Below are positions 8,913 to 30,373 of a DNA stretch of 64,000 nt, one piece after another. The position numbers and the translations under genes are program-made. How positions within the stretch are numbered: the first letter of the stretch is position 1; the number at the start of each line of letters is the position of its first letter. The notes under the pieces were generated by a model, which was given only the letters and a program-made list of their open reading frames with translations, was not told the origin of the DNA and searched no databases. Source of the DNA: Bacillota bacterium (GTDB taxonomy: Bacteria > Bacillota > Clostridia > Ch29); assembly GCA_013540605.1 (NCBI GenBank), contig JABVCK010000028.1:1-64000 (forward strand). The letters run 5' to 3'.

Positions 8913-9317
8913 TTAAATGTAAAATTGGTCTTTTTCGTATAGCCTATACCTCCTGTGTGAAAATTTCCTATTCAGTTCTATTTCGCCATCCGTACCCACT
9001 TTCTCTTCACTCTTCCTCACAGTGGTTGAATATATGGGAATATACCCTTGTGAGAACGCCCAGTTGACCATTATATAAGTCGCTCCAAAATCGCCCTGCA
9101 CAAGAATATAATCTTCAGGTTCCACTTCGCTTTCTAGCCACTCTATTATTGGTTTTAAATATTCTTTCAAAGTGGGTATGTCTGGTGGCACATTTGACCA
9201 CAATTTCTGTAAATGCTCAGGAAGATATTTAACTCTTTTTGCTTTCAATTCTTCAATTGCTTGTTTTTCCTGAACCTCAGTTAACCTATGCGAAAATAAT
9301 AAATAAAGCTTTCTCAA
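8913..9317 (-). CDS. csx20: Csx20 family type III CRISPR ancillary protein (putative ring nuclease)
   Basis: A 134-residue protein matching my recollection of the Csx20 family: KLYLLFSHRLTEVQ at the start, then LPEHLQKLWSNVPP, EYLKPIIEWL, and the characteristic VQGDFGATYIMVNWAFSQG. The start is TTG behind AGGTGG. It follows csx1 by 39 bases at the end of the type III operon. Csx20 has been proposed as a ring nuclease that destroys cyclic oligoadenylate and so turns off Csx1-type effectors; I rely on that family-level proposal and cannot show activity from sequence. The pairing with a CARF-HEPN effector fits it. Confidence 0.78.
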   Translation of the reverse strand: MRKLYLLFSHRLTEVQEKQAIEELKAKRVKYLPEHLQKLWSNVPPDIPTLKEYLKPIIEWLESEVEPEDYILVQGDFGATYIMVNWAFSQGYIPIYSTTVRKSEEKVGTDGEIELNRKFSHRRYRLYEKDQFYI

Positions 9318-9356: not shown

Positions 9357-10697
9357 TTAAAAGTTTGTATAAGGATATTCTTTGGGTATTTGCTTCATCT
9401 CGCCATTGTTAAAGACCAGTTTGTTAATACTATTTAAATAAGACCGAGATTCGCCAATATCCTTCTCAAAAGAGCCACTCCGCAGATAACCTGCATGTGC
9501 AATATCATTTCTTATTTCGCTTATCTCCTTAAATTTTTCGTTTAATTCTCTATATGATTCTTTTTTACTATATTGAAATTTATTGTTTATCAGTCTTTTA
9601 ATTTTATCTCGGTCATCTTTGCTTGTTCCTATCGTGCATCCGGCACCTTTATATATTTCAGCTATCCTGGTTACAATACACTCTGCCAAGCAGATGTATC
9701 CGCTGGAATATCTTTTGTTCTCAAAATACCACCTTGCAAGCTCAAATTGAAACTCGCTGTTTGAGTTTATACCCTTAAACCTTTTTATAAAACTACCCAA
9801 GTAAGGCATCAGATACTTAAAGACGCGAAACGAAGAAGTTTCACTGTTATTAATATAATACTCAAGGCTGTCGATCTCTCTTTTCAGGTCTGTTAGATAA
9901 TTTATATTTACAAGTTCCGAAATATTTTTAATCTTCGTCCTAATCCTGTCATCCTCAATCAAGTCTGCCATTAAATAACCATTTCCGTAGTTGATAAAGT
10001 TGTATACCCCTCTGGCCCATAAAGAAATATTAAATAGCGGGCTCAGATCAACAACGGGTGCATAACCAAACTCTCCGTTCGCTTCCAGCATGCCGTAATA
10101 TATTCCTGCCAGCTTTATTTCCTTTTCATAATTTAGGGTCTGTATGAAATCCATCATGAGATACATGAAGAGCGGTATTGAACGGAACGAATGGGTTATA
10201 TCGAGGTAAACTTCGTCACCGCGGTCCAGGTTGTTACCAATACTCATAAATATATCGAAATTATTCCACAATTCTCCTTCATCAATACCATAGCTTGTAA
10301 TATAGCAGCGTGAACCACCCAATGCATTTGGAGAAACATGTTTCAGGTAACTATCTATAACGCTATTTGTCATTTCTAAATGCTCTGTTTGTATTAACGA
10401 CTTTTTCGAATTAGAACTGCTCGACCTGTCTCCCAGACCGTACCAGTAGTCCATATCCTCATCCTGTCCACTTTCGTTAGCAAAGTACCTGTATACTTCT
10501 TCCCACATGGATTTTGCCGTGCCTATCAGGAATACCCTGTCCACATTAAGATGCGTGGCAAGGGCGGCTGCCACAAACGGAGTCCTGTACTCTTTCCCCT
10601 TTCCGCCACCCAAATCTAACCTGTACACTGCTTCGGGGTACCTTCTATCCTCTACTTTTTTACCTACTCCTAATGGAGAAATAAGCACTTTCGCCAT
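9357..10697 (-). CDS. csx1: CARF-HEPN ribonuclease of the Csx1/Csx2 (TM1812) family
   Basis: A cyclic-oligoadenylate-activated ribonuclease of the type III system. The N-terminal CARF domain begins KVLISPLGVG and contains the DxTHG-type motif YLDITHSFRSIP at about residue 163. The C-terminal HEPN domain has the catalytic R-x4-H signature in EIRNDIAHAGY (about R396 and H401). Both key features are intact, so RNase activity on activation by Cas10 product is expected. It lies 17 bases after csm5 with its own GGGGATG ribosome site, clearly in the csm operon. The exact cyclic oligoadenylate species it senses cannot be read from the sequence. Confidence 0.92.
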   Translation of the reverse strand: MAKVLISPLGVGKKVEDRRYPEAVYRLDLGGGKGKEYRTPFVAAALATHLNVDRVFLIGTAKSMWEEVYRYFANESGQDEDMDYWYGLGDRSSSSNSKKSLIQTEHLEMTNSVIDSYLKHVSPNALGGSRCYITSYGIDEGELWNNFDIFMSIGNNLDRGDEVYLDITHSFRSIPLFMYLMMDFIQTLNYEKEIKLAGIYYGMLEANGEFGYAPVVDLSPLFNISLWARGVYNFINYGNGYLMADLIEDDRIRTKIKNISELVNINYLTDLKREIDSLEYYINNSETSSFRVFKYLMPYLGSFIKRFKGINSNSEFQFELARWYFENKRYSSGYICLAECIVTRIAEIYKGAGCTIGTSKDDRDKIKRLINNKFQYSKKESYRELNEKFKEISEIRNDIAHAGYLRSGSFEKDIGESRSYLNSINKLVFNNGEMKQIPKEYPYTNF

Positions 10698-10714: not shown

Positions 10715-11782
10715 TCATTCTTTAACGGTAACGGTTACCCAGCCCAAAACACTTTGGATTATGCCATTCCTTAACACTACCACCCTTGTGCTTGGAAATG
10801 GACTATAATTTCCATAACCTGCTGCACTTCTGATTTCCATCATCTGGCTAGGTGTAAATAGAGAAGCTATTGAATTGTCGTAGAAGGTTTTACCGGACCC
10901 CAGCCGCAGGACAGCACCCTCCCCTGTATCCTTTAACTGCAGCGCTTTGTTATATAGTCCTGTATAAAGGTTAATCAAAGCATCAAGCTTCTCGTGCTTT
11001 TTCTGGCATAGTTCGTCAATTTCCCTGTTTAGCTGTTCTGTGTAGAAGTTATTGACCTCGACTAATACCTCTTTTTCCCCGCCCTCATATAGATATTCGA
11101 ATCTATCCGCTAAAGAATGATATTTGGCTTTTGCCGTACAGGCAAGGTGAAATTCAAGAACAGTTCCTCCAGGTATTGCCTCTTTTATCACCGGAATTGT
11201 TGCTTTCCCGGTACTGATGTTTATCCTGCAAGTTTTCACAACCTCAATATTGTCATAGGGCAAAGGCAAGGTGTCCGATATATGAAGAAATTTAAGTACA
11301 TCTTTATCTATTGAACCAAACTCATCTTCTCCAACGTATGTTTTCTTGTCAGTAGTGGCTGTGCAGCCCTTATCAAGCAGATGTCTATAAAGTAGAGCAG
11401 TACGAAAGGCGCCTTTTATACTACTTCCGGGTACATATGGCCTATTGGACGTAGATATAGCTCTATGGATTTCTTCGTTTTTAAGCTCATCGCTAGCTCC
11501 TGTAATACGGCTTGAATAATCTTCAATATTAATCCCGTTTTCTGCTAAAAAGTCTTTAAGTTTATACTTATCCACTGTGTTTTTTTCTGTCTGAATATTG
11601 ACGATATTTATAAACCTATCCATTAATTCTTCTGCATTCTCTTTGCTATATATATAGCTTTGAAGTTTATTATGATCTATGTAATATACCCTGCCATTTT
11701 CGTATATATAGTCGCTATAAGGGGATAAAATCTCACCGTTTCCAATATGCAGTGGGGTCTCGGCATTCATTATCAACTTCAT
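10715..11782 (-). CDS. csm5: Type III-A Csm complex subunit Csm5
   Basis: Csm5 is the RAMP subunit that caps the 3' end of the crRNA in the Csm complex and takes part in crRNA maturation. The 355-residue protein begins AETPLHIGNGEILSPYSDYI, typical of Csm5, and contains the RAMP phrase YVPGSSIKGAFRTALLYR. The C-terminal glycine-rich segment VLRLGSGKTFYDNS is also typical. Its ATG directly follows the csm4 stop codon (TAGATG), indicating translational coupling. No obvious defects. Confidence 0.93.
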   Translation of the reverse strand: MKLIMNAETPLHIGNGEILSPYSDYIYENGRVYYIDHNKLQSYIYSKENAEELMDRFINIVNIQTEKNTVDKYKLKDFLAENGINIEDYSSRITGASDELKNEEIHRAISTSNRPYVPGSSIKGAFRTALLYRHLLDKGCTATTDKKTYVGEDEFGSIDKDVLKFLHISDTLPLPYDNIEVVKTCRINISTGKATIPVIKEAIPGGTVLEFHLACTAKAKYHSLADRFEYLYEGGEKEVLVEVNNFYTEQLNREIDELCQKKHEKLDALINLYTGLYNKALQLKDTGEGAVLRLGSGKTFYDNSIASLFTPSQMMEIRSAAGYGNYSPFPSTRVVVLRNGIIQSVLGWVTVTVKE

Positions 11783-12859
11783 CTATCTCCCACCCCCAAA
11801 CCCTATTAAGAACGACTTGCCGCAGAAATATATCCTGTGTTTGTCGAACCCTTGGGGTGTCAGTTCTATTATTTGACCAGAAACCGGCATATTAAAAATA
11901 CTCCCTTCCTTTAGTACCCTTATACTTCTTTTACGGAAGAGTTGTCGCCCTCCAGAAAAAATATATCCGTTCTTCTTATGTAATTCGTAGTTCATAATGC
12001 CGGCTGTTTCCTCTTGACCTGGGTAACAGGCAGAAAGGCTGACATAATATCTCCCATTATCTCGAAAATTATCAAACTGCTTTTCATCTGATTCCTCAAT
12101 ATGAGTAAAATATCCCATACCCATGCTCCTCATCCCGCCGATGCCCTCATCTGCCAAAAGACTTATTGAAGCCTTCAATTCTTTTGTCAAAGAACCATCA
12201 AACAGGAAATACATAAAAGGCTCAATTCTATAGCTATTAACTTCCGCGCGGCAGACTTCTAAATATTCTTGATAGTAAAAAACATTAGATTTATTACTAT
12301 TTCTGTTTATTGCAACCCGTGGCCGGGAGTTTTGTTTTATAAATTTTAACCCTTCTAGTTCTTCTACATTTACATCCAAGCCATGTAATTCCTCCTTCAT
12401 ATAGCCAAACTTGACATCTATTGTTGGAAGCCCCAACAGGTCAAAGGCAAAATTCCTTTTATCTTCATCCCATGAAGCCAGAAGTCTATCAAACGCGCCA
12501 GCAGATATGTACTCAATCCTCTTAATGCGTTTGGCCGCCCATATTTCGCTGCCTTCCATATTATTGAGGGAAATGCCACAAATCGGTTTAGGCAAAAAGT
12601 ATAAAGTTTTTTTCAGCTCCCCTGTGTCTCTTTCAATAATGTCTAATCCGTAATATATAGACGTAAACTTAGCTTCACCATTTTCGAAAATTGAGACAGT
12701 GTTATCCACAACATCACTTCCATATAACAATACCATATTGTTTATTAAGGCTGAAAACAACTGGTCCGATGAAAAATGGTCCGCTAGCTCATCCCGGCTA
12801 TCCCCAAAATGATACTTTCCCCTATCATTAATAAACAGCTTAAATGTTTTCATATCCAT
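11783..12859 (-). CDS. csm4: Type III-A Csm complex subunit Csm4
   Basis: Csm4 is the Cas5-like subunit that holds the crRNA 5' handle and contacts Cas10. The opening FKLFINDRGKYHFGDS, followed by HFSSDQLFSALINN, is typical of Csm4, and GIGGMRSMGMGYF is the expected RAMP glycine loop. The start is ambiguous: ATG codons occur at 12859 and 12853 and a TTG at 12868. All of them overlap the end of csm3, whose stop is at 12840-12842. The overlap implies coupled translation. At about 360 residues it is slightly longer than many Csm4 proteins. Confidence 0.92.
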   Translation of the reverse strand: MDMKTFKLFINDRGKYHFGDSRDELADHFSSDQLFSALINNMVLLYGSDVVDNTVSIFENGEAKFTSIYYGLDIIERDTGELKKTLYFLPKPICGISLNNMEGSEIWAAKRIKRIEYISAGAFDRLLASWDEDKRNFAFDLLGLPTIDVKFGYMKEELHGLDVNVEELEGLKFIKQNSRPRVAINRNSNKSNVFYYQEYLEVCRAEVNSYRIEPFMYFLFDGSLTKELKASISLLADEGIGGMRSMGMGYFTHIEESDEKQFDNFRDNGRYYVSLSACYPGQEETAGIMNYELHKKNGYIFSGGRQLFRKRSIRVLKEGSIFNMPVSGQIIELTPQGFDKHRIYFCGKSFLIGFGGGR

Positions 12860-13607
12860 CAATTCCAATCAGCTCAGAAATTTTTTGTTTTATCTGGCTA
12901 AAGCTAAGCCTGTCCAAGGTACCGTTGTAAACCTCCCTATCCTTGTTGTCACTCTCATAATCTTCAGTAGTCTTTATACTTATGCTTAAATCGTCGAATT
13001 TTATTCTTCCATACCCCCTTGAACCATTCCCTCCAAGATAATCATCCTCAAGCAGCCGCAGTGCCACAATAACATCTCCAAACCGTTCAATATCCTCGTT
13101 CTGAAGTATGTTAAATACAAGGTACAAATCAAATCTGGCACCGGCCGGAACCCTTTCCTGTTGTCTTGGATGGTCTGCCTTTGAGATTTTCCTGTCTATT
13201 ACATTCTCCCATTTGCTCTCGGTATAAGTAAGTTCAAGCTCAGCAAACATACCTTTCTTTTCTTCCATATCTTTTTTTGTTTCCCCATCAAGCATAGCAT
13301 CTCGGACATAAACTCTTGTTGGCCCCACCCTTAATTCTTCGTCTTCATTCCCCGCGCCTTTTCCAAAAATTGCGCATATATTGCAGTTGCCGCAGTTGCA
13401 TACCCTGTCTTTGCCTTTTTTCTTCTCTAACAAGCTCCGCATTTTACCTTTCAATGACGACCCCGGGATAAATGGTACCCCTTCGGAATCCTTTATTACG
13501 TTATTATCTATACCACCTATCACAACGTCAGTTTTTGAACCTCCTATTGCCAATCCCGTGATAACTTTAATCTTCCCTTTTATGAAAAGCTTAGCTACTA
13601 GTTTCAT
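12840..13607 (-). CDS. csm3: Type III-A Csm complex backbone RNase Csm3
   Basis: Csm3 forms the backbone and cleaves target RNA at 6-nt intervals. The 255-residue protein shows IGGIDNNVIKD, whose Asp (residue 34) matches the family's catalytic Asp, then FIPGSSLKGKMRSLLE and a four-cysteine cluster CNCGNCNIC that probably binds zinc. The C-terminal glycine loop LGGNGSRGYGRIKF is intact. The ATG lies about 12 bases from AAGGAG, a little far. Target RNA cleavage should be functional. Confidence 0.95.
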   Translation of the reverse strand: MKLVAKLFIKGKIKVITGLAIGGSKTDVVIGGIDNNVIKDSEGVPFIPGSSLKGKMRSLLEKKKGKDRVCNCGNCNICAIFGKGAGNEDEELRVGPTRVYVRDAMLDGETKKDMEEKKGMFAELELTYTESKWENVIDRKISKADHPRQQERVPAGARFDLYLVFNILQNEDIERFGDVIVALRLLEDDYLGGNGSRGYGRIKFDDLSISIKTTEDYESDNKDREVYNGTLDRLSFSQIKQKISELIGIDGYENI

Positions 13608-13633: not shown

Positions 13634-14206
13634 TTATTCGTCATTACCAACGAATTTTCGGTAAGCCACTATAGCTTCCATGAACTTTTTGAAATTATCC
13701 ATCTGATCTTCGCTCTCAGGCACCATTTCTCTAACTAGATGGTCCAATATGTCCATGAACTCTTTCAGCTCTAACTTCTTTTCATTTCTTCCGGCAGTGT
13801 AGGCAAACTGTGGCCTTAGCATTTTAAGCTCTTTCGCATTTTTAGCATTCATCACCCTCGAATAAACCTTTCTAATCATTGAAGTTGTAACCTTACCGTA
13901 TCTCAGTTTTTCTGCATATTTTCTGGCATTATCGCAAAATTCATCATAATCAATTTCTTTCAGCCTGAGGACATTTTCTTTAAAATATGTGACTATTTCG
14001 TCTTCTTCTATTTTTACATCTACAGCGTGGGGTCCCCTTCTATCCTGAACCACCCTAAATATAACCCTGTCTCCCTTCCGTGGAGCACTGCCGCTAAAGC
14101 TGTCCGTGCCCATATGAATCTTTGAATCCTCGCCATCTTTTTTGATACGTCCATAGCCTTTTTTATCGTCATAAAACTCAACTGTACCTATGAATTGTTT
14201 AGACAT
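13634..14206 (-). CDS. csm2: Csm2 with N-terminal cold-shock domain fusion
   Basis: Csm2 is the small helical subunit of the Csm complex and is usually about 120-150 residues. This one has 190. Residues 5-66 look like a cold-shock domain: GTVEFYDDKKGYGRIKK (RNP1-like KGYGRI), SKIHMG at the RNP2 position, then RKGDRVIFRVVQDRRGPHA. Residues 68-190 are Csm2: ENVLRLKEIDYDEFCDNARKYA, TTSMIRKVYSRV, LRPQFAYTAGR and a last helix ending AIVAYRKFVG. The chain is continuous and the only good ribosome site (GGAGG) precedes the cold-shock part, so this is a genuine fusion rather than two genes. An added RNA/ssDNA-binding module in the complex is inferred. Confidence 0.9.
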   Translation of the reverse strand: MSKQFIGTVEFYDDKKGYGRIKKDGEDSKIHMGTDSFSGSAPRKGDRVIFRVVQDRRGPHAVDVKIEEDEIVTYFKENVLRLKEIDYDEFCDNARKYAEKLRYGKVTTSMIRKVYSRVMNAKNAKELKMLRPQFAYTAGRNEKKLELKEFMDILDHLVREMVPESEDQMDNFKKFMEAIVAYRKFVGNDE

Positions 14207-14209
14207 ACG

Positions 14210-16597
14210 TTAATCCTCCTCCCGGAATTTTCTGGTGGACAATTCAGCCCAGCGAATTGCAGCGGGTATAATCATTATGTTACTTATTTCACTGCATTCA
14301 GCTTTATTCATAAGGTTGTGAATTACTATCTTCCTATACTCCTCAATAAGCTTTTCTGCATAGTTTTTCTTATTCTTTACATCATCGGCCTTAACATCCC
14401 TCAAGTAATACGCAAGTCTCCAGAATCTAATGCTGTCAAATTTACCTTTGGTCGAATCCTTTAATATACGCTTGAAGCCTAAGGTACTCTTACTAACCTT
14501 ATAAAGAAGGCCCCTGCCATACCCCCCATCTGTCATCATTCTTTCCAACAGATTCTTTATTCTCTCAATGTACTTGAACTCTTCCCAATTAAATACCTCT
14601 CCTAAGAACGAAACTTTATTCTTTACCGGCATACCACTGTCCAGCATCTCTGAGCGCTTAGCGTCTTCAAGAGCTTCTTCTGTAATGCTGGCAGCCCGTG
14701 TAAGCGGATAGTGCGGTTTGAAGATGCCTATTCCGGCTGAAAATGTTAATTTACTGTTGTGACAGGTGTACTCCCTGAATTTTTCATAGAATTTTCCAGC
14801 AAACTCGAAGATCGCATCCCATCCTCCTAATACGAAAGTATCATCGCCACCAGAGAACACTACATAAAGCTGATTATTCCAGTGGTTTTCGACGATAATC
14901 TTATTTATGTATCCTTCAAAATAAAGGCTGAGCATTCTGCTCAATGCAGTGATTCTTGAAATGGATTTATTGTTCGGGAAACCCAAGGCAAAAATGGCTC
15001 CCAGATTATCCACATCAAGCTTTAGAAATCCCAGTTTCTTGTCTCCTATTCCATCCTTAACACTGGTACTGGACAGCTCATCAAAGGTTGTGATTTCACC
15101 ATTTGCATTAACAGGGAGGTTATAAGCCCCAAACTTAAAGCCATCACACCCTTCCTGGATAAAACTAGTAGAATTCAACATATACCATAGGGAATCGCTA
15201 TTATCATACTCCGGTCTGTAAGTTAAAAATTCTACCCTGTAACCAAACATAGCCAGCACATCATTATATGAATTAACGGCAGACGTGGTCAAATGTTGGG
15301 TTGGTACAAACCGGCAGTACATGGCATCTCTGAGCTGACTAGTGAGATCGATGAAACTGGCGCAGAGCGAACATATCTCAATCTCTCCATTATGGATTTC
15401 CAGTTTTCTTCGGCCACTTCCCGTTCCACAAACCTTGCAGATACCCTTTTCTCCTTCTCCTTTATCCAGAGGACCGAAGATTTTCTTATAATTTTCTGCA
15501 AGCCCCAGTTCACTCCATTTTTTCTGTTTGAGATCATTCACCTTTTTCTTAACGCTGTCCCAAAGATCTGAAAAGTTATCAAAATTCTTTGGCGATAAGA
15601 AAACACTTCCAAGGGCTAGATAGATGTCCCCTTCATGAACATTTAGGAGGGTACTTAAAATTTCTTTTTTTGCCTTTTCAAGCTCCGCTACTTTACACGC
15701 AGGCGCCAACAGATAAAAATTCCCTCCGCCACAATATAGTAGATTGGCCTTCTTTAAGTCCAGTGCGTCAAGAAGATAGTGGGCTATTGTTTCAGCCAAA
15801 ATACTGAGGTAGACTGAACGCCCTTTCAGACTCTTGGCAGCTCCTTTTGAAGGTATATTAAATATGAATTCTTGTATCCCGGACATATCGCCCTTAATCA
15901 ACATAAACTGTTCTTTATCGCTTTTAGTCTTTCGCTCAAGATCATTGGCAGAAAGTTGACCTTTCTGATACTGGTCATAAAGACACAATGCGATAGCAGC
16001 AGTTGTCTTAGAATGGTCAAACAAGGAAATGTCTGGAATATGGTGCCATGTTTGAGCAGGTACGCTCCATAAATATTTCTCCAGTAGATAATATAGCTGT
16101 GTCTCATTATTTGTTTTGCCAAGTTCGTCCAGAAAGCCATCCACAGCCTTCTTATATGCTGCTTCATTAACAACAGTATGGCTTCGAGGGAAAATATTGT
16201 TTAGAGCCAGAGGTTTTAGTTCGTAACTATACACATTGTTTGTATTTTGAGAGAATAATAAAGAAAATATAGATTGAAGTGGAGTACGGTTATATTTGTC
16301 AGAATTGGTTTCATCCTTCTCTCGCTCAGATGACGAAAGCCAATCTGCCAGCTGGATAATCCTTTGCCAGTCGTTAGTAGGTTGATGATGATATAATACA
16401 GCATCTGTTACTTTATCTGAATATTTTTCAAATAAGGGGTGTTCTTTTCTAAGTGTGGATAACAGTTGAGCTGAATATGCCGGATGCCCTTTCTCAACTT
16501 TTTTCAGATTATCATCTACCTTAAGACTCTTAGCCCTTTCAATAAATTTCCCAATATCATGAAGAAGAGCTGCCATATATATCTCATCTCGTCTCAA
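14210..16597 (-). CDS. cas10: Type III-A Cas10/Csm1: HD nuclease and cyclic oligoadenylate synthase
   Basis: The large subunit of the Csm complex. On target RNA binding it cuts ssDNA and makes cyclic oligoadenylates. The N-terminal HD domain has ALLHDIGKFIER (His13-Asp14). A zinc-ribbon region has CKVCGTGSG and, after a spacer, CSLCASF. The palm domain carries intact FSGGDDTFVLGG (GGDD at residues 583-586), so cyclase activity is expected, matching the CARF effector Csx1 in the same operon. The start is TTG at 16597 behind GGGTGAT; an internal ATG seven codons later is the alternative. It is the first gene of the type III operon and ends just before csm2. Confidence 0.95.
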   Translation of the reverse strand: MRRDEIYMAALLHDIGKFIERAKSLKVDDNLKKVEKGHPAYSAQLLSTLRKEHPLFEKYSDKVTDAVLYHHQPTNDWQRIIQLADWLSSSEREKDETNSDKYNRTPLQSIFSLLFSQNTNNVYSYELKPLALNNIFPRSHTVVNEAAYKKAVDGFLDELGKTNNETQLYYLLEKYLWSVPAQTWHHIPDISLFDHSKTTAAIALCLYDQYQKGQLSANDLERKTKSDKEQFMLIKGDMSGIQEFIFNIPSKGAAKSLKGRSVYLSILAETIAHYLLDALDLKKANLLYCGGGNFYLLAPACKVAELEKAKKEILSTLLNVHEGDIYLALGSVFLSPKNFDNFSDLWDSVKKKVNDLKQKKWSELGLAENYKKIFGPLDKGEGEKGICKVCGTGSGRRKLEIHNGEIEICSLCASFIDLTSQLRDAMYCRFVPTQHLTTSAVNSYNDVLAMFGYRVEFLTYRPEYDNSDSLWYMLNSTSFIQEGCDGFKFGAYNLPVNANGEITTFDELSSTSVKDGIGDKKLGFLKLDVDNLGAIFALGFPNNKSISRITALSRMLSLYFEGYINKIIVENHWNNQLYVVFSGGDDTFVLGGWDAIFEFAGKFYEKFREYTCHNSKLTFSAGIGIFKPHYPLTRAASITEEALEDAKRSEMLDSGMPVKNKVSFLGEVFNWEEFKYIERIKNLLERMMTDGGYGRGLLYKVSKSTLGFKRILKDSTKGKFDSIRFWRLAYYLRDVKADDVKNKKNYAEKLIEEYRKIVIHNLMNKAECSEISNIMIIPAAIRWAELSTRKFREED

Positions 16598-17020: not shown

Positions 17021-17278
17021 TCAGCAGTTCTGCCAGTTTACTAATGGGTGGAATGATACCTTAATACCCATAATGGTTCTTTCCACAAACCCTGTAATTC
17101 TGGAGCACTTTTTAACCAAAGTTTTTACCCCGACATCCTCAAGCTCAGTACCATGGAGTTTAATAGCCTTAAACCAGGTGATTAGGTTGTGGGTCATAAA
17201 CACCATCCATAGGAAGGTATAGATGCCGTAGAATTTACGGGTTCTAAGATTCTTAATACCATACGTATCTTTGGCCAT
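17021..17278 (-). pseudogene. C-terminal fragment of a DDE transposase
   Basis: An open frame of 85 codons whose translation (IKNLRTRKFYGIYTFLWM, then LITWFKAIKLHGTELEDVG and TLVKKCSRITGFVERTI) resembles the C-terminal end of IS1380/IS4-type DDE transposases, by general recollection only. The frame continues upstream for a few codons and then breaks about 25 bases from the left end of the IS1634-type element, so that insertion probably truncated it. No catalytic residues remain. Exact family not certain. Confidence 0.55.
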
Positions 17279-18151
17279 TTTAAACCTAAATTCCCGGTAA
17301 AATTATAACTATGTTTCCAGATTAATCCCCAAGCTTTCCAAAATATGACTCTGCGGTTTGGTAACCTCCGTAAGGATATGCCCGTACTTGCCTGAATAAC
17401 GGACTTTAGTCAGCGTCTCCATTTCCAAAAGGAGCTCGCGAGTCGTATATTTATCGATGAGCCCGGTGTCTCGCATCTTTTTACGCAGAGCACTTATGAA
17501 GATAAGCGCAATAAACTGGACAAAGAGCCTACCGTCCATGGATGCCGCACTATGGATGCGAAGTCGTTTCATGTCCAACTGGTTTTTTAGATCATCAAAG
17601 CATTTCTCGACGGTGTCTTTATTACGGTACACCCTGAGGGCTTCTACAGGGTCCTTGATATCATTGGTCAATAAGGCGTAGAAGCCAGCATACTGGTTGC
17701 GATATTTCTGGATGGTTTCGTTGTTAAAGAACACTTTACGACCTCGTACAGGTGTCTCTTTAATAACAAAGAAGGTTTTGTAGGCATCTTCATGATTACT
17801 AACCATTTGACCGCTTTCTAGTTCTTCTTTGTACGTCAGTAGTTCTTCAGTAAAACTATCTATAGCCTCTGCTGCAGCATGGGCATTGTAGTACAGATGC
17901 ACATAACAGCGTCTACGCTCTTTTCCCCAAGGATACAGCTTTGTGTGAACATATAAAATCTCACCATCCAGCTTCCGGTAACTTTCCGGATTCTGGATAG
18001 TGTCCCGGGTCTCATCAATGATATGTTGAACCCACTTAAGTCGGTTAGGAACTGCAAGGATAAATTTGTCCTTTGCTGCCAACAGTTCATCCACATTTTT
18101 TTGGCTGTAAAAACCTTTGTCCATCACCAGATGTAGCTTGGGCAGCTCTAG

Positions 18152-18806
18152 GTAACTAAACTACCACCTGCTGAAGCAGGTGGGTTACAAAATAAATTTT
18201 GTGCGAGTGAAACTCGCTTTTTAGGCTTAAGCCCACTTAAAGACCATCTGCTAAATGCAAGCTTAAATTTACGACTGAAACTCATTCTTCAATTTTAAAA
18301 TCATTATTCTCCTGCCTTCCCTGATTCTCTATATACTGCTTTATCATCTCTTCTGTTACGCTCCCTACTGTCGCACAAAAATATCCTCTTGACCACAAAT
18401 GCTGCCCCCAGTATCTTTTCTTAAGTTCTGGAAAATCATCCTGTAGCATCCTTGATGATCTCCCTTTTAAATACTGCATTATCTTCGCTGGGGCTATAGT
18501 AGGTGGGCATGATATTAGTATATGTATATGGTCTTTTCCCACACTACCTTTAATTATCACTATGTTTCTTGCCTCGCACCCTTGTATTATGAGGTCTCTT
18601 GCCCTTTTGGCTATTTCCCCTTTAAGTACTTTATATCTGTACTTTGTTGTCCAGATTACATGGTACTTTATATCGTATACTGCATGACTGTTTTTTCTGT
18701 ATTCCTTCACCTCTCTCACCTCAGCGCTATCTTATATGACAGTTCCTGCCTTGTCAATGCTCAAAGCTTTTCGCCTGAAAGGCGAAGGGTTTAGACCTGG
18801 TGCATT
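18152..18806 (-). mobile_element. IS200-type insertion sequence (tnpA only)
   Basis: About 655 bases, the usual size for IS200 elements, with one tnpA gene and a subterminal hairpin near each end: 18164-18183 (CCACCTGCT and AGCAGGTGG around a 2-nt loop) and 18770-18786 (TTCGCCT and AGGCGAA). No terminal inverted repeats or target duplication are seen, as expected for HUH/Y1 elements, which move as single-stranded DNA. Ends are placed from the interruption of the host transposase frame and may be off by a few bases. Confidence 0.85.
18282..18719 (-). CDS. tnpA: IS200/IS605 family Y1 transposase TnpA
   Basis: A 145-residue single-strand transposase. The HUH metal-binding motif is visible as DHIHILISCPP at about residues 64-74, and the catalytic Tyr is expected in the helix EEMIKQYIENQ near residue 129. 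The opening KNSHAVYDIKYHVIWTTKYR and the segment RYWGQHLWSRGYFCATVG are diagnostic. The likely start is GTG at 18719. Full length and apparently intact, so this element may still be mobile. There is no tnpB partner. Confidence 0.95.
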   Translation of the reverse strand: MREVKEYRKNSHAVYDIKYHVIWTTKYRYKVLKGEIAKRARDLIIQGCEARNIVIIKGSVGKDHIHILISCPPTIAPAKIMQYLKGRSSRMLQDDFPELKKRYWGQHLWSRGYFCATVGSVTEEMIKQYIENQGRQENNDFKIEE

Positions 18807-19685
18807 GATACTAAAAGTCTTCAAGAAGTGATGTAGGGTGCTGACGTCACTAATGTTTCCAGGCAAACGATGGTAATAAACGGGTAACTGACTTTTCTGG
18901 CCAAAGAGTAACGCTAGATTGATCTGTCGGAGTTTATCGCCATCCCGATTGTAGCCGTACTTGATGTATTCATTTAGTTCTCCATAGGAAGAAACGGAGG
19001 TGATATCATAACACAAATAGTCGTTTTCTAGTACACTTTCTCCCCACTTGGAAAAGAAGGTTTGTTGCCCGTCAATATTTAAGGACTGAAGGATTTCACT
19101 GATACGTTGACTTGTTAATGTTTTGTTGAATGGATGGGCATGACTTTTACTCCAAGCTTCACAGTGACTTAAGGAGCCGCCGTGCATAGCAAGATAGTAG
19201 GCCATACACAGAATTTGCTGGTACACTTTCGGGAAACAACTCTTTAATACTTTGTCTAGTTCCAGTTCAGCAGTAATACTGTCCAGCAACAATGTCGGTC
19301 CTATGATCTTTGCAGTGGCGCTCACAGCCGGATCACGAACAGCAGCTTGTTCGGGATTTAATCGTTTGGATGGAATAAATTCCCCTGTCTTGGGGTCAAG
19401 CTTCCCGATACAGACTTGCTTGTTGCGCGGTTGCTTCTTTTCTTTATCCCATACAGAGGTTGCTTCATAGATGTAAGTAACACCTGTTTTCTTATTAACT
19501 TGATGTACACGATAAGCCATGTTAAACCTCCCTCTCATGGTTATAATTATAACTATGTTTCAGGAGAATTACAACACAAAATATTGCTGTATACAGCTTA
19601 TTTGCAGACTTTTTTGCGACATAGTTATAAAGATTGCGGGAAGTTAGATAAGTATCGAATTATAAGCCGGATCACACATTGCTTT

Positions 19686-22600
19686 GTTTCAATTCCTCAT
19701 AGGTAGGCTAAAATCCGGGTTTCGATATTCTTCTTTGCCTTCCAGAGCATGTTTCAATTCCTCATAGGTAGGCTAAAATCCTTATTCAACACAAAATATC
19801 TTTAGCAACTATAACAAGTTTCAATTCCTCATAGGTAGGCTAAAATCTACCAGGATATCAATTGACAAAGCAAGCGATGAGGAGTTTCAATTCCTCATAG
19901 GTAGGCTAAAATCCGCAGAAGAAGGTTGCTATCGTTGGATGAGTTGATGGTTTCAATTCCTCATAGGTAGGCTAAAATCGAACCCTTATTCCGCATCCGG
20001 AGCAGGCGCCCGTAGGTTTCAATTCCTCATAGGTAGGCTAAAATCCATCATAGACGGCCTGAACGCATGGCTGGAGGATTATGTTTCAATTCCTCATAGG
20101 TAGGCTAAAATCTTGTCACAGGTGAAAGGTATAGGTCCGACCCTAGGCTGGTTTCAATTCCTCATAGGTAGGCTAAAATCAAGGTGGTTGGGAAGTCGTA
20201 TTCGAAACCGACAGGGGTTTCAATTCCTCATAGGTAGGCTAAAATCACCCAGTACCAGGGTGAGCCTATTATTGTGCCTATTGGTTTCAATTCCTCATAG
20301 GTAGGCTAAAATCCTCAGGCTCTTTTTTAGGACTTGCAAAACAAAATTCAGTTTCAATTCCTCATAGGTAGGCTAAAATCCCTTTGCGACCTTTAGCAAT
20401 ATTTTTTTATGTTTTGAGTTTCAATTCCTCATAGGTAGGCTAAAATCGGCAGCAGATCCGGCTGATTGTCTCGGGGAAGGACAAGTTTCAATTCCTCATA
20501 GGTAGGCTAAAATCAGCCGCAAAAGGAGGTTGAACACGATGCCTAAAGCGAGTTTCAATTCCTCATAGGTAGGCTAAAATCAGCCGCAAAAGGAGGTTGA
20601 ACACGATGCCTAAAGCGAGTTTCAATTCCTCATAGGTAGGCTAAAATCCAGCAGACATACAGGGTGATGAATTCGTAAACAGTGGGTTTCAATTCCTCAT
20701 AGGTAGGCTAAAATCGTGAAGCGGTACTCGGATACGCTGCTGATATTTTTGCGTTTCAATTCCTCATAGGTAGGCTAAAATCTAACCAACTACATCAACG
20801 ATACCGGAAAGAAAAACGTGTTTCAATTCCTCATAGGTAGGCTAAAATCGGTGTTTTGACAGTTACTCCTGCTATTTTAAGCATTTATGTTTCAATTCCT
20901 CATAGGTAGGCTAAAATCAATATAAATACATATAAACATAAATACATATATAGAGTTTCAATTCCTCATAGGTAGGCTAAAATCAAATATATTATTCTGA
21001 TGCTATGCAATGGCTATATTAGTTTCAATTCCTCATAGGTAGGCTAAAATCAATCAATATAGAGATAGGTTTGCGTTAGCATATTGTGGTTTCAATTCCT
21101 CATAGGTAGGCTAAAATCGATGTAAACAATCCCATAAATTCATCAGACATAAAGTTTCAATTCCTCATAGGTAGGCTAAAATCTTAAAAAGATTAAAAGA
21201 GCAAAAACCACCATATTCAAGTTTCAATTCCTCATAGGTAGGCTAAAATCGTTGAACCCGACATTCAGCACATCTGTATACAACTATGTTTCAATTCCTC
21301 ATAGGTAGGCTAAAATCTTCTGCCGTGGCGACGATGACTATATCTACTTCCAGGGTTTCAATTCCTCATAGGTAGGCTAAAATCCACAGCTGCCGGTGTG
21401 GCCCTCTTCGCCATGGCAAGGTTTCAATTCCTCATAGGTAGGCTAAAATCCTCGGCGGGGCTGTGATATGTGTGGGGATATCGGCTAGTTTCAATTCCTC
21501 ATAGGTAGGCTAAAATCTGCACCGTGCATTCGGAAAAGCTGTTGCTGATGGATGTTTCAATTCCTCATAGGTAGGCTAAAATCGCCAAATCAATTTGGCG
21601 CAAATTTCTTTTATCTCTGTTTCAATTCCTCATAGGTAGGCTAAAATCTATAATATAATGATATAAATATGTAAAAGGAGTTGATGTTTCAATTCCTCAT
21701 AGGTAGGCTAAAATCTCTGCCTTTCTCATTTCGGACAAAGGTAAGCATTTCTTGTTTCAATTCCTCATAGGTAGGCTAAAATCATTCCCAAAGAGTTATT
21801 GTCATACCACCTCCTACCATGTTTCAATTCCTCATAGGTAGGCTAAAATCGCACCGGAGTATTATGATATGGTGGTAGGGAATTTAGGTTTCAATTCCTC
21901 ATAGGTAGGCTAAAATCTGCGGTTTTCCGCGATATGCCGGCTGCTTCAGCGGCGTTTCAATTCCTCATAGGTAGGCTAAAATCTCCTAAAATTGATTTTA
22001 ATGTTGAAAAGTTTGAACATGTTTCAATTCCTCATAGGTAGGCTAAAATCAAACATATTCGTTATTCGCTATTTTATATTCAGGTTTCAATTCCTCATAG
22101 GTAGGCTAAAATCAATCGAAAAGGAGTTAACTAAAGCAGCATATATATAGTTTCAATTCCTCATAGGTAGGCTAAAATCCATGAAAAAGGTCTATCAGAC
22201 AATGATTTGAAACTTAGTTTCAATTCCTCATAGGTAGGCTAAAATCCCGGGCTATCATCTATGAGCGGTATTTTGCGGTCCAAAGTTTCAATTCCTCATA
22301 GGTAGGCTAAAATCGCATAGAACTTGCTGAACTTATAACCAATCTAATCATGTTTCAATTCCTCATAGGTAGGCTAAAATCTTTACAAAGAGTACAGCAA
22401 AAATGAATTTTATTATTGTTTCAATTCCTCATAGGTAGGCTAAAATCCAGTATGGTTGTTTATGTCCACAAGTTTTAGGATTAGTTTCAATTCCTCATAG
22501 GTAGGCTAAAATCCCTGTTATTTTATATTTTTATTTTACCACATGTAATGTTTCAATTCCTCATAGGTAGGCTAAAATCCTAAATAGCTCATCATCTTCA

Positions 22601-25600
22601 CCCTTTCATGAGGAGGGTTTCAATTCCTCATAGGTAGGCTAAAATCTCCGATGATACCTAAAATTGCGAAAGGTATAGCGGCGTTTCAATTCCTCATAGG
22701 TAGGCTAAAATCGGGTAGCAAGCTGGGCTGGTCCTTTTTGGGATGGAGTGTTTCAATTCCTCATAGGTAGGCTAAAATCAATATTAAAACTGAAATACAA
22801 GAGCGCTGGAATACGCGTTTCAATTCCTCATAGGTAGGCTAAAATCCCTCCTTCGTGCAAGGCTGACGCGAAAGGAGGATTTTGTTTCAATTCCTCATAG
22901 GTAGGCTAAAATCGTTATTTCTCGGGCTCAGGTGTATCGGTTAGTTACGGGTTTCAATTCCTCATAGGTAGGCTAAAATCCCATCAGATTTGAAAAACAT
23001 GCTGTATTGAAGTGGTGTTTCAATTCCTCATAGGTAGGCTAAAATCCGAAAAAGTTGCTTAGACTGTTGGAAAAGAAAAAGTGGTTTCAATTCCTCATAG
23101 GTAGGCTAAAATCTCCAACTCCAGATGGTCCAGCCTTTAATCCAATCGAGTTTCAATTCCTCATAGGTAGGCTAAAATCCTGTGTTCCAAGATAAGTTGA
23201 AACATCCATCTTTGGTTTCAATTCCTCATAGGTAGGCTAAAATCCAAAGGTTACCCCACTTTGGAATGGTGGAGGTACTGTGTTTCAATTCCTCATAGGT
23301 AGGCTAAAATCGATACAGTGAAACTGGTGCAACAACCGTTGAAATTGTGTTTCAATTCCTCATAGGTAGGCTAAAATCCATGACAGATTCACCAACAACC
23401 AGCCCAAGATGAACTGGTTTCAATTCCTCATAGGTAGGCTAAAATCCTGTTATTTCTTATAGGGGTGAAGAAAACTTTTTCGGGTTTCAATTCCTCATAG
23501 GTAGGCTAAAATCCAAAAATGATTGGTTGGAAAGAGATTGATGTTGTGTAGTTTCAATTCCTCATAGGTAGGCTAAAATCGTGGCTGGCGCAAGTTCATT
23601 GGCCGCGCCAAAACTAGGTTTCAATTCCTCATAGGTAGGCTAAAATCCCTCAGTCATAATCCTAATGGCCTTATCAGCTGGGATGTTTCAATTCCTCATA
23701 GGTAGGCTAAAATCCTCTTACTCTCGGTGGTCTCGGAATATGGACTCTTATGTTTCAATTCCTCATAGGTAGGCTAAAATCCATATCATCCCTGCGGCGT
23801 TCGCCGACAATGATTTCAGTTTCAATTCCTCATAGGTAGGCTAAAATCTTATTAAGTGCGGCCATGCGCGGCTTTGCATCTATCGGTTTCAATTCCTCAT
23901 AGGTAGGCTAAAATCATATGTAGTTACAACAGTCGTTAGCGATATGGCAGCTGTTTCAATTCCTCATAGGTAGGCTAAAATCTCCCAAGGCAGACTCTTC
24001 AGGACGCTTATGTTCATGGTTTCAATTCCTCATAGGTAGGCTAAAATCCTCTTACTCTCGGTGGTCTCGGAATATGGACTCTTATGTTTCAATTCCTCAT
24101 AGGTAGGCTAAAATCCTAGATCCAATATTTCTTCATTATCAAGGATTTTGTCGTTTCAATTCCTCATAGGTAGGCTAAAATCTCGTAAAGTTGTTCTAGG
24201 TACGCCTATTTCTTTTGCAAGTTTCAATTCCTCATAGGTAGGCTAAAATCGCGAACAAGAACCTGCAGTCATTTGACGAAGTGCATGTTTCAATTCCTCA
24301 TAGGTAGGCTAAAATCTCAGTAATTGGTGAAAGTTTAATTGGAACAACCTTAGTTTCAATTCCTCATAGGTAGGCTAAAATCAGTTGCCTTTGGAATTTA
24401 TGCTGGTGTTGCAAACCTGTTTCAATTCCTCATAGGTAGGCTAAAATCCCATTTGCCTTTGCCAGTGTAAACCCTGCATTTTTAGTTTCAATTCCTCATA
24501 GGTAGGCTAAAATCGGTGAGGACATTTTTATATAATATTATGGGTAATGAGTTTCAATTCCTCATAGGTAGGCTAAAATCCCAAGATTTCTGTTTCAGAT
24601 TATCAATACCCAAGTGGTTTCAATTCCTCATAGGTAGGCTAAAATCCTAGATCCAATATTTCTTCATTATCAAGGATTTTGTCGTTTCAATTCCTCATAG
24701 GTAGGCTAAAATCTCGTAAAGTTGTTCTAGGTACGCCTATTTCTTTTGCAAGTTTCAATTCCTCATAGGTAGGCTAAAATCGCGAACAAGAACCTGCAGT
24801 CATTTGACGAAGTGCATGTTTCAATTCCTCATAGGTAGGCTAAAATCCAGCGCACACTAAAGCAAATAGATGACACATACAAAGTGTTTCAATTCCTCAT
24901 AGGTAGGCTAAAATCTATCAAAACCAATGTGCAGGAGAAATGGGAAGCTCTGTTTCAATTCCTCATAGGTAGGCTAAAATCTACCAGCCCAATCAATTAC
25001 ATCCTGCCAAATTGCCGAGTTTCAATTCCTCATAGGTAGGCTAAAATCGGGTCGCCTATTTCATTTTCATCGTAGTTTATACCCTTGTTTCAATTCCTCA
25101 TAGGTAGGCTAAAATCCTGTAGTCATAACTCTTCCCATCCTTCGTAAATACGGGTTTCAATTCCTCATAGGTAGGCTAAAATCGAGGAAAAACCGACTGA
25201 AAACGTCGTCAAACCCAGCAAGTTTCAATTCCTCATAGGTAGGCTAAAATCTTAAGGCCTACAGTTATGGACAATATAGAGGAAATTGTTTCAATTCCTC
25301 ATAGGTAGGCTAAAATCTGCAATTGGATGGCGATGAAGTTGCATCATATAAATTGGTTTCAATTCCTCATAGGTAGGCTAAAATCGCGTACATGCTCTAC
25401 ACCTCCAAAAGTAGTGATAGGTTTCAATTCCTCATAGGTAGGCTAAAATCAACGATGGGTCATTTAAACCGCTTTCTAGTGATAGGTTTCAATTCCTCAT
25501 AGGTAGGCTAAAATCTCGGCCATTGAGGATGAGAATCGGGCTTTTGGGCTAAGTTTCAATTCCTCATAGGTAGGCTAAAATCTTACCTGAGGAGTTACTA

Positions 25601-28600
25601 CAAAAACGTGCAAGAGAGGAGTTTCAATTCCTCATAGGTAGGCTAAAATCCAGGGGTTACTCCATCCTGCCAATTTGTTTTTGTAGTTTCAATTCCTCAT
25701 AGGTAGGCTAAAATCATGATATGCAGCTATGGCAGAAGATATTGTGGTACCTGTTTCAATTCCTCATAGGTAGGCTAAAATCCAAAAGAAAAAATACTTG
25801 ATTCACGTCTTGTCAAGTAGTTTCAATTCCTCATAGGTAGGCTAAAATCCCAGTTTTAATAAATTAAGCCTTGCCTGATATTCAGGTTTCAATTCCTCAT
25901 AGGTAGGCTAAAATCCCCAAAAGAGAGCAAACCTTTCTGGTCTGGTAGTCGGTTTCAATTCCTCATAGGTAGGCTAAAATCCAGAAAGCCTGTTTGCAGT
26001 GTTTTTATTGACTGCACCGTTTCAATTCCTCATAGGTAGGCTAAAATCCCACCTTTTTGCCCAAGTAAAAAAGCCCCGAAGGGCTGTTTCAATTCCTCAT
26101 AGGTAGGCTAAAATCCTTCTTCCTCAGTATAGTAGCCTGCCTCCTTTTTCTGTTTCAATTCCTCATAGGTAGGCTAAAATCCCAAGAAGAGCTTTGTGCG
26201 GAAGGTGCAAAAGTTCTTGTTTCAATTCCTCATAGGTAGGCTAAAATCCGGGAGGCGGCCGATGCGCTGGAGGAATTAAGCCTGAGTTTCAATTCCTCAT
26301 AGGTAGGCTAAAATCCTGGGACGCTCAGAAATGCAGAGGTATAGCTCCCTTGTTTCAATTCCTCATAGGTAGGCTAAAATCTGAAAGTATATGACGAGGA
26401 CCCGAAGCAAAAGACCATGTTTCAATTCCTCATAGGTAGGCTAAAATCTAATATTTGTGTCTCGTCAATCTCCGACTGGCTGCCGGTTTCAATTCCTCAT
26501 AGGTAGGCTAAAATCCGTCCGGGTCCCGTGAAGATACCGCATGTTGGATGAAGTTTCAATTCCTCATAGGTAGGCTAAAATCCTGCCAACGGGTCCCGGC
26601 CTTGCATATGCAGTGGGGTTTCAATTCCTCATAGGTAGGCTAAAATCGTATATCCGCAGCCCTTTCCTGTCGCTGTAGCAACAGTTTCAATTCCTCATAG
26701 GTAGGCTAAAATCGTACATCTGGAGCCTGCGATACCAGATAGGCAGCAAGGTTTCAATTCCTCATAGGTAGGCTAAAATCGACAGCAGACCATACATAAC
26801 ATCCGGGCCCATGCAAGTTTCAATTCCTCATAGGTAGGCTAAAATCCACTGAACATATACAGCCATGCTCTGCGGTCAGCTGAGTTTCAATTCCTCATAG
26901 GTAGGCTAAAATCAACTGTGAGGTCAATAAGAAAGGAGAGTATATATGGGTTTCAATTCCTCATAGGTAGGCTAAAATCCTTTAGATGGCCCATTGCCGG
27001 CAGTATCCTGAGCTTGTTTCAATTCCTCATAGGTAGGCTAAAATCGAGAATGGGAGCAGGTTGATGATGAAGATTTCCCGGGTTTCAATTCCTCATAGGT
27101 AGGCTAAAATCATCGTGGCAAACCATTTTTCTTCCTCCATGTGATGTAGTTTCAATTCCTCATAGGTAGGCTAAAATCAACAACTAAGCCACCTAAAATG
27201 GTCATCTGCTGCACGGTTTCAATTCCTCATAGGTAGGCTAAAATCTAATATTTGTGTCTCGTCAATCTCCGACTGGCTGCCGGTTTCAATTCCTCATAGG
27301 TAGGCTAAAATCCTGCCGATTGTCCCATGTCATTTATTGCATCTACTATGTTTCAATTCCTCATAGGTAGGCTAAAATCTTGGATACGGTACGGAAAACA
27401 ATCCACCCGTTCCAGGTTTCAATTCCTCATAGGTAGGCTAAAATCTCTAAGTATCTGGTAGGATTAGTGCCATCAGACTCGTTTCAATTCCTCATAGGTA
27501 GGCTAAAATCCTGCCGGAAGGTGTTATAGAATTCCGTTGCCCAATCTCGTTTCAATTCCTCATAGGTAGGCTAAAATCGGTGTTCGTGAGATATAAGGCA
27601 AGCCACTACATCCTTGTTTCAATTCCTCATAGGTAGGCTAAAATCTATAGCGGTGGTGTGAGATTTCTCATAGATAGTGTGGGTTTCAATTCCTCATAGG
27701 TAGGCTAAAATCAAGCGATTATTATTACCTGCTGCCCAATGATTGCCCGGGTTTCAATTCCTCATAGGTAGGCTAAAATCGTCTTCTGCCGCATTAAATC
27801 CCAGAACCTTTGCTATGTTTCAATTCCTCATAGGTAGGCTAAAATCGCAGCGGAGGAAGTCTACCGTAGCAACGAGCCTATCAGTTTCAATTCCTCATAG
27901 GTAGGCTAAAATCGGGGCTTCATACCATTGATGGCTGGGTGATTATTCAAGTTTCAATTCCTCATAGGTAGGCTAAAATCTTGTGGGTATGCCACGGACC
28001 CCAAGTATGCAGAGAAGTGTTTCAATTCCTCATAGGTAGGCTAAAATCTCCATATACGCTGTGTAGAAATACTGGAATAAAACTGTTTCAATTCCTCATA
28101 GGTAGGCTAAAATCAGACTGCACCTGGAAGATGATTGAGGACAGCGAACTGGTTTCAATTCCTCATAGGTAGGCTAAAATCCAACTATCCAGACCCGGAG
28201 AGAAAAGGAGAGACGTTGTTTCAATTCCTCATAGGTAGGCTAAAATCAAACAACTGGTGGTTACTTGAAAGTTTGTGATACTGAGTTTCAATTCCTCATA
28301 GGTAGGCTAAAATCTGGGAGCACAAGGGAAGTTCCAACACAGCGACAAGAGTTTCAATTCCTCATAGGTAGGCTAAAATCAGTGTTTGTGATGCAGGATT
28401 TCATTTCTGCAAACAAGGTTTCAATTCCTCATAGGTAGGCTAAAATCTTTTCTTTCATCCACTTACAGCATTCAGGGGATACTTGTTTCAATTCCTCATA
28501 GGTAGGCTAAAATCGAGAATGGGAGCAGGTTGATGATGAAGATTTCCCGGGTTTCAATTCCTCATAGGTAGGCTAAAATCTTTTCAGTATGATTTTCAAT

Positions 28601-30373
28601 TTCAGTATCATCACTGGTTTCAATTCCTCATAGGTAGGCTAAAATCAAATCCTGTTAGCGAGGATTTCAACCGCATAGAAGGGTTTCAATTCCTCATAGG
28701 TAGGCTAAAATCTATGCCACCCCTACATTTTTTCTTCGCCTTCAATTTTGTTTCAATTCCTCATAGGTAGGCTAAAATCGCCGTAGAGATGGCCCGGGCA
28801 AGCTCAAAGTAACTTGTTTCAATTCCTCATAGGTAGGCTAAAATCACATCTGGAGCCTGCGATACCAGATAGGCAGCAAGGTTTCAATTCCTCATAGGTA
28901 GGCTAAAATCCCTGACACCAAAGATTGAGTGGTATGCAGTGGGCGAGTTTCAATTCCTCATAGGTAGGCTAAAATCCATAACGTCAAATTGGGGACAGTT
29001 TGGGGACAAAATAGTTTCAATTCCTCATAGGTAGGCTAAAATCGGCAGAAGTTGAGACGCCCAGTCCGGAGAAAAAGGGTTTCAATTCCTCATAGGTAGG
29101 CTAAAATCATTCGCTTATCCTTGTCCTTTAGCACCTTTTTTGGTAGTTTCAATTCCTCATAGGTAGGCTAAAATCTCCTGACACCAAAGATTGAGTGGTA
29201 TGCAGTGGGCGAGTTTCAATTCCTCATAGGTAGGCTAAAATCTACACAATGAGAAGCGCCCTCATAGGTTTGACCGGTGTTTCAATTCCTCATAGGTAGG
29301 CTAAAATCATATGCGGTGAATGCAGCGAAAATTACGAAAAGTAGTTTCAATTCCTCATAGGTAGGCTAAAATCTACGAAGGTGATATAGTTTACGACCAT
29401 CATAATGAGTTTCAATTCCTCATAGGTAGGCTAAAATCCTTGTTTGTCATGTATAGATGAATGGTTGGATGAAATGTTTCAATTCCTCATAGGTAGGCTA
29501 AAATCCGTCGGGGTCCTGTTGTGATACCGCTTCATCATGGCTGTTTCAATTCCTCATAGGTAGGCTAAAATCGAGCCGGCGCTGGACTTGGAGGACTTGG
29601 AATTAGCGGTTTCAATTCCTCATAGGTAGGCTAAAATCCTGTTGCAAAGTCCGGTATTTCCTTTACCAGTATTAAGTTTCAATTCCTCATAGGTAGGCTA
29701 AAATCCTCAATGCTCTTCCTCCCCCAAGTTAACTCTTTTTTAGTTTCAATTCCTCATAGGTAGGCTAAAATCCCCTATGGATTTTAAAAAGTAGTATAGG
29801 GTTATACTGTGTTTCAATTCCTCATAGGTAGGCTAAAATCGGGCTCCGCATAGTGAATACGCCTTCAATGTAGCCATGTTTCAATTCCTCATAGGTAGGC
29901 TAAAATCCGGTAGATGAGGATACCGGAGAAAAGTATGGTTGGGGGTTTCAATTCCTCATAGGTAGGCTAAAATCCAACATTGCAGCAGTGCTGGTTGCGT
30001 ATGCCGCCGAGTTTCAATTCCTCATAGGTAGGCTAAAATCATTGCAAAGGGACAGCTGCGAATTGTGCTTTTCCCGGTTTCAATTCCTCATAGGTAGGCT
30101 AAAATCTGATGCCGATTGTGAGTATATTCGGTGGGGGTGTCGGGTTTCAATTCCTCATAGGTAGGCTAAAATCTCATGGGCTGTAGTTGGGTATTCAAGT
30201 TTCTTTTCAGTTTCAATTCCTCATAGGTAGGCTAAAATCTAATAAATTGGCAAAACAGCATTTGCCGAGGGGCTAAGTTTCAATTCCTCATAGGTAGGCT
30301 AAAATCTGGTATTTTCGGTTGCGTACTCTTTGCCCAGGTCGTCGTTTCAATTCCTCATAGGTAGGCTAAAATC
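19686..30373 (-). CRISPR. Large CRISPR array: about 161 repeats and 160 spacers
   Basis: The 30-nt repeat on the plus strand begins GTTTCAATTCC and ends GGCTAAAATC; all copies I read are identical. Spacers are about 35-38 nt and the mean period is 66.6 bases. I counted 161 repeats by hand (error of one or two possible). The minus strand is the transcribed one: its repeat ends ATTGAAAC, the usual Cas6-generated handle, and an AT-rich leader with a promoter lies at the right end beside cas2. New spacers should therefore be at the 30.3 kb end. Several spacers are repeated, including a three-spacer block (24116-24286 and 24647-24817). The trailer repeat shows no decay and the IS1634-type element starts 55 bases beyond it. 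Confidence 0.99.
26066..26085 (-). terminator. Intrinsic-terminator-like sequence carried by a spacer
   Basis: Within the spacer at 26049-26085 the minus strand reads AGCCC-UUCG-GGGCU followed by a run of U. This is a 5-bp stem closed by a very stable UUCG loop plus a U tract, oriented with array transcription. It probably came from a terminator in the captured phage or plasmid. Whether it stops pre-crRNA transcription is untested, but about 95 older spacers lie downstream of it. Confidence 0.5.

Follow-up and report, generated by a model that had tools for sequence, protein, structure and literature searches.

A cold-shock domain (CSD) and Csm2 are encoded as one continuous protein in a type III-A CRISPR operon of a Bacillota bacterium, within the 64,000-nucleotide stretch of DNA analysed here (the window). 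The fusion itself is observed, and from its modelled folds the product is predicted to be a working Csm2 carrying an N-terminal cold-shock (OB-type) domain. It is poorly understood how type III complexes locate structured transcripts and open them, and a multi-copy subunit with an RNA-chaperone-type domain, together with natural sisters that have no such domain, offers a direct test of structured-transcript handling. The minus-strand position of the gene, the occurrence of the fusion across a lineage, and a CSD-Cmr6 with a solved structure all go beyond the first-pass annotation of this DNA.

The fusion gene and its operon

The plus strand of positions 13634-14206 is closed, and the coding frame lies on the minus strand, where the fusion starts as GGAGGAGG-ATTAACGT-ATG, 3 bases past the cas10 stop codon. 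The features of the locus are as follows.

19684..29906, strand not assigned: CRISPR array, 30-nt repeat GTTTCAATTCCTCATAGGTAGGCTAAAATC, >100 units
14210..16597, minus: cas10/csm1, HDIGK and SGGDD intact (profile and motifs)
14215..14222, minus: Shine-Dalgarno sequence GGAGGAGG 5' of the fusion ATG
13634..14206, minus: csd-csm2 fusion gene, single frame from ATG to stop, 190 aa (Pfam, NCBIfam, model)
14009..14194, minus: CSD, residues 5-66 (PF00313, model and fold match)
13637..14005, minus: Csm2 domain, residues 68-190 (PF03750, TIGR01870, fold match, conserved R112/Y136/R140)
12840..13607, minus: csm3 (NCBIfam; D34 aligned with S. epidermidis Csm3 D32)
11783..12868, minus: csm4 (NCBIfam)
10715..11782, minus: csm5 (NCBIfam)
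9357..10697, minus: CARF-HEPN ribonuclease of Csx1/Csm6 type (TIGR02221)
8913..9317, minus: Csx20 (NCBIfam)

The first-pass annotation had read a cold-shock pattern in residues 5-66 and Csm2 in residues 68-190, in one frame behind one ribosome site, and profile searches bear out both assignments. Residues 7-65 match CSD PF00313 (E 2.1e-7, 31.1 bits against the Pfam curated cut-off of 27), residues 86-188 match Csm2_III-A PF03750 (E 1e-18, 68.6 bits against 24.8), and the NCBIfam Csm2 model TIGR01870 is passed with 59.7 against 30.6 bits. An HMM built from 23 free-standing housekeeping Csps of related genomes, and from these alone, also finds the fusion CSD (E 1.7e-11). The equivalog cut-offs of NCBIfam CspE (27.4 vs 120 bits) and CspD (26.2 vs 115) are not reached, so the domain is called a CSD and not a Csp, and the retron Se72 model of NCBIfam matches the fusion under its cut-off only. 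Scanning of the window gene revealed no Shine-Dalgarno-preceded start between CSD and Csm2, and the whole genome holds one Csm2 match, with no second csm2. Production of free Csm2 by internal initiation was thus rejected, and all Csm2 copies should therefore bear the CSD. An assembly artefact or single-genome oddity was also ruled out, because 13 homologous fusions occur in other genomes.

The type III-A context named by the first-pass annotation is that of a complete cas10-csm2-csm3-csm4-csm5 effector operon with catalytic motifs present, continuing into the genes for the CARF-HEPN ribonuclease and Csx20 and then a WYL regulator (Pfam), downstream of which lie same-strand genes that are type I-B-like as judged by translation. 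As Cas10 has kept HDIGK and SGGDD, and Csm3 D34 matches D32, the Csm complex looks functional from its genes and motifs. The array, at ~19.7-30 kb, lies upstream of the csm operon and runs to, or past, the end of the scanned stretch. Transposase-like ORFs occupy the interval between them (17021-19538), one being of IS200 type as judged by sequence.

The AlphaFold2 model of the fusion (alignment of 18 homologues) has a pLDDT of 92.2 and a pTM of 0.74. The modelled CSD is a five-strand barrel (strands 4-13, 18-23, 29-33, 47-55 and 58-66) whose best match among solved Csps is 5jx4 (Z 12.8, rmsd 1.1 over 65 residues), and the modelled Csm2 part is a helical bundle with helices within 70-187, residues 67-187 matching Csm2 chain 6muu_B (Z 12.8, rmsd 2.8 over 116). 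R112, Y136 and R140 correspond to SeCsm2 R49, Y87 and R91 via T. onnurineus Csm2 R96/Y129/K133, a correspondence that relies on published equivalences between the T. onnurineus and S. epidermidis proteins and on an alignment to T. onnurineus Csm2. These target-RNA-contacting or cleavage positions of solved Csm2 are invariant in 14/14 fusions.

Distribution and ancestry

CSD-Csm2 was found 14 times, in scattered Bacillota, and 12 of these fusions are supported by sequence: besides the window, 10 match the Pfam CSD at E <=1.6e-5 and one at 0.009. The remaining two, L091 and L092, show no sequence match to CSD, yet their alignment is in register with the fusions. In the same class, 19 of 391 genomes have Csm2, and the window alone carries the CSD (1/19), the other 18 frames having been read without finding one. 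In a phylum-wide sample of 398 genomes, 46 had Csm2 above the cut-off and 6 of these a CSD; of the other frames, one was cut by a contig end, and the rest were covered by reading or scanning or, at <=158 aa, had no room for both domains. With the CSD in a minority of genomes in both surveys, the view that it is an ordinary extension of all or most Csm2 proteins was rejected. Further hosts emerged when 84,980 species were scanned, among them Anaeromonas gelatinilytica, Candidatus Frackibacter, a Halanaerobiaceae MAG, Thermacetogenium, Tepidanaerobacter, Tissierellia and Fervidibacillus. A phage or plasmid origin was rejected, as viral contigs and phage records gave no match and plasmids held only unfused Csm2 or Csp.

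In a tree of the Csm2 core, all 14 fusions fall in one clade of 18 (support 99/98), the other four members having basic flexible tails in place of the CSD. A single clade of fusions is not rejected by the Csm2 tree (p-AU 0.19). In the tree of the 65-residue CSDs alone, the window CSD sits among Csps on a long branch, and because this tree does not separate the two histories, a single gain followed by losses is as compatible with it as multiple gains are. One gain and ~3 losses is the simplest count, and the patchy spread suggests horizontal transfer. On a contig titled as a Bacteroidales MAG (L083), csd-csm2 is nested among Bacillota sequences, which could reflect misbinning or transfer. At two CSD-Csm2 loci, the Cas10 (L079:4514-6718 and L080:5592-7967) has lost the HD motif and kept GGDD, unlike the window Cas10.

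The nucleic-acid face of the CSD and its possible role

The window CSD has KGYGRI, IHMG and RRGPHA, as first read. In Bs-CspB numbering, it retains aromatics at 8, 9 and 15 together with K13, G14, G16, H29 and R56, and its binding face carries the replacements F17R, F27K, F30M and F38 to G. As these four phenylalanines are replaced, ordinary base-stacking by the window CSD may be weak. Bs-CspB, Tm-Csp and CspA share with it the five-strand fold, RNP1 KGYG, H29 and a basic residue at 56, but they are free-standing, whereas the window CSD is fused and has none of F17, F27, F30 and F38.

Most of RNP1/RNP2 survives in the relatives, though little of it in the most divergent ones, and different members have kept different parts of the face. 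The L079 (Anaeromonas) and L080 CSDs retain F17, F27 and H29, and a large subgroup of fusions keeps F/Y15, F17 and Y27, but has N29. W8, F9, F30 and F38 are not conserved family-wide, and L086, L091 and L092 have degenerate CSD sequences from which most binding residues are lost. The RNP positions F15, F17, F27 and H29 exceed random columns in conservation at a nominal P of 0.006 in 11 clear members, a subset chosen post hoc, and at P 0.20 with all 14 fusions. Between two close relatives, the substitution rates (CSD dN 0.10/dS 1.30; Csm2 0.075/1.38), with dS near saturation, indicate purifying selection on the CSD. The pattern of RNP conservation implies that the CSD in most members probably still contacts nucleic acid, by an altered mode, and in a few members it may have turned structural.

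Published structures contain 2-5 Csm2 copies per complex, lying along the target RNA as the first-pass annotation had it, and Csm2 helices a2/a3 touch that RNA (PMC10289348). In apo complexes Csm2 is loosely bound (PMC8964682, PMC13060164). Intact complexes have been purified through N-terminal His tags on Csm2 (PMC13060164, PMC9762709, PMC8964682), so the Csm2 N-terminus tolerates additions. Because several Csm2 copies line each complex, a row of CSDs would be expected beside the target-RNA channel. Most likely, each CSD is an auxiliary, largely sequence-independent RNA-contact module that would aid the capture or holding of single-stranded RNA, either the target before or during pairing or its flanks, and would steady the loosely held Csm2 ridge. 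It would thereby be a folded substitute for the basic low-complexity N-terminal tails of many other Csm2s. In the window CSD, phosphate contacts would be likelier than classical base stacking, since its face is more cationic than aromatic. We give this role, RNA contact with ridge support in place of basic tails, about an even chance of being correct. In its favour are the CSD profile and fold, the 14 fusions in one clade, selection, RNP conservation, the RNA contacts, loose binding and tag tolerance of Csm2, and the CSD-Cmr6 and mostly net-positive extensions or zinc-ribbon-like N-termini of unfused Csm2s described below; against it are the loss of F17, F27, F30 and F38 in the window, the lack of family-wide conservation at W8, F9, F30 and F38, the four clade members without a CSD and the three degenerate members. 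The first-pass annotation suggested that the domain might unfold structured transcripts, hold non-target RNA or protect from cleavage, roles that are conjectural for this fusion.

A serious rival, although one that we hold to be rather unlikely, is that the CSD is a structural brace packing on a neighbouring Csm2, on Cas10 domain 4 or on Csm5 and thereby stabilising the Csm2 ridge, with RNA binding secondary or lost. The binding-face residues are indeed conserved unevenly, apo complexes show instability of Csm2 (PMC8964682), and the model of L092 (Fervidibacillus) keeps the CSD fold with its RNP residues gone (pLDDT 90, Z 8.5 to Csp), a model that is biased because its alignment contained CSD members. 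Yet within the face of the 11 clear members it is the RNP1 and RNP2 positions that are better conserved, and the ridge needs no brace, as the CSD-less sister proteins carry flexible tails only. A more specific proposal, that the CSDs on each Csm2 form a repeated RNA-chaperone ridge that captures and melts structured transcripts, with a parallel device in CSD-Cmr6, is entertained as a doubtful possibility.

That the window CSD is merely decaying in this genome, as a relic not under selection for any role, seems very improbable: several of its binding residues are lost and the clade shows repeated loss and degeneration, but the domain exceeds the Pfam cut-off, has a confident barrel and an intact frame, and the substitutions on its face are charged rather than random. 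CSDs bind ssDNA besides RNA, and the window Cas10 has an intact HD motif, so that the CSD could bind ssDNA of the transcription bubble, feeding the Cas10 HD nuclease or shielding the DNA from it. Such DNA handling cannot be the general role, because L079 and L080, among the clearest fusions, have Cas10 without the HD motif, and the proposal as a whole is judged very improbable. Recruitment of a further protein to the complex, for example RNA polymerase or a ribonuclease of the host, is the faintest of the candidates, prompted by host nucleases that act with Csm complexes (PMC9762709).

CSD-Cmr6 and other Csm2 N-termini

Sequence search of solved structures surfaced 9arw_H, 'CSD domain-containing protein Cmr6', which was absent among the matches listed in the fold searches; 9z7q, 9z7v and 9z7x are further PDB entries with a CSD-Cmr6 chain. 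Among 29 Bacillota Cmr6 frames, four have a clear N-terminal CSD (L115, L120, L122 and L128), one matches weakly (L107) and L105 appears OB-like by eye. L122 matches 9arw_H over its full length (E 5e-78), so a CSD on a type III subunit has a precedent, at minimum in the form of a deposited structure. As in CSD-Csm2, the CSD of this type III-B protein is N-terminal and in one chain with an effector subunit. In CSD-Cmr6, however, the partner is the single-copy, Cas7-like Cmr6 and the RNP motifs are textbook, whereas the partner here is the multi-copy small subunit Csm2. In the open-access literature searched, no paper on the CSD-Cmr6 structures and no description of CSD-Csm2 or a cold-shock Cmr6 was found. 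The novelty supposed by the first-pass annotation thus stands for the CSD on multi-copy Csm2, which is apparently undescribed in that literature, but not for the CSD on type III subunits at large. Together, CSD-Csm2 and CSD-Cmr6 suggest repeated recruitment of one RNA-binding fold to different positions of type III complexes, and CSD-Csm2 variants could be useful components of Csm tools for RNA targeting or diagnostics. A separate Cmr6 group (L119, L123) has a conserved N-terminal extension of ~100 residues with no Pfam match.

Ordinary Csm2 (PF03750, TIGR01870) has the helical fold, operon position and R/Y/R contact residues in common with the fusion, but its N-terminus is short or a basic flexible tail in place of the CSD. 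T. onnurineus Csm2 (6mur, 6muu, 6iqw) resembles the fusion in that an extension of ~50 residues precedes the core, but it is alignable to the fusion only from ~residue 48-52, and no CSD match is reported for it. Basic, low-complexity tails are common at the N-terminus of unfused Csm2s, whose N-terminal extensions are net positive in 17/24 cases and net negative in 1. In addition, a Cys4 zinc-ribbon-like N-terminus occurs on two other Csm2 proteins. From these tails, the zinc-ribbon-like N-termini and the tolerance of tags, we infer that the Csm2 N-terminus is a recurrent add-on site for RNA affinity. In one frame of 365 aa (L160, G422:C9:34339-35055, minus strand), the Cys4 zinc-ribbon-like N-terminus is followed by a tandem pair of Csm2 domains, and in a second genome (L161) the motif precedes one Csm2. 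Finally, a 603-aa frame (L042, G329:C1:829281-829580) runs from a truncated Cas10 straight into Csm2, which could reflect a fusion or a deletion.
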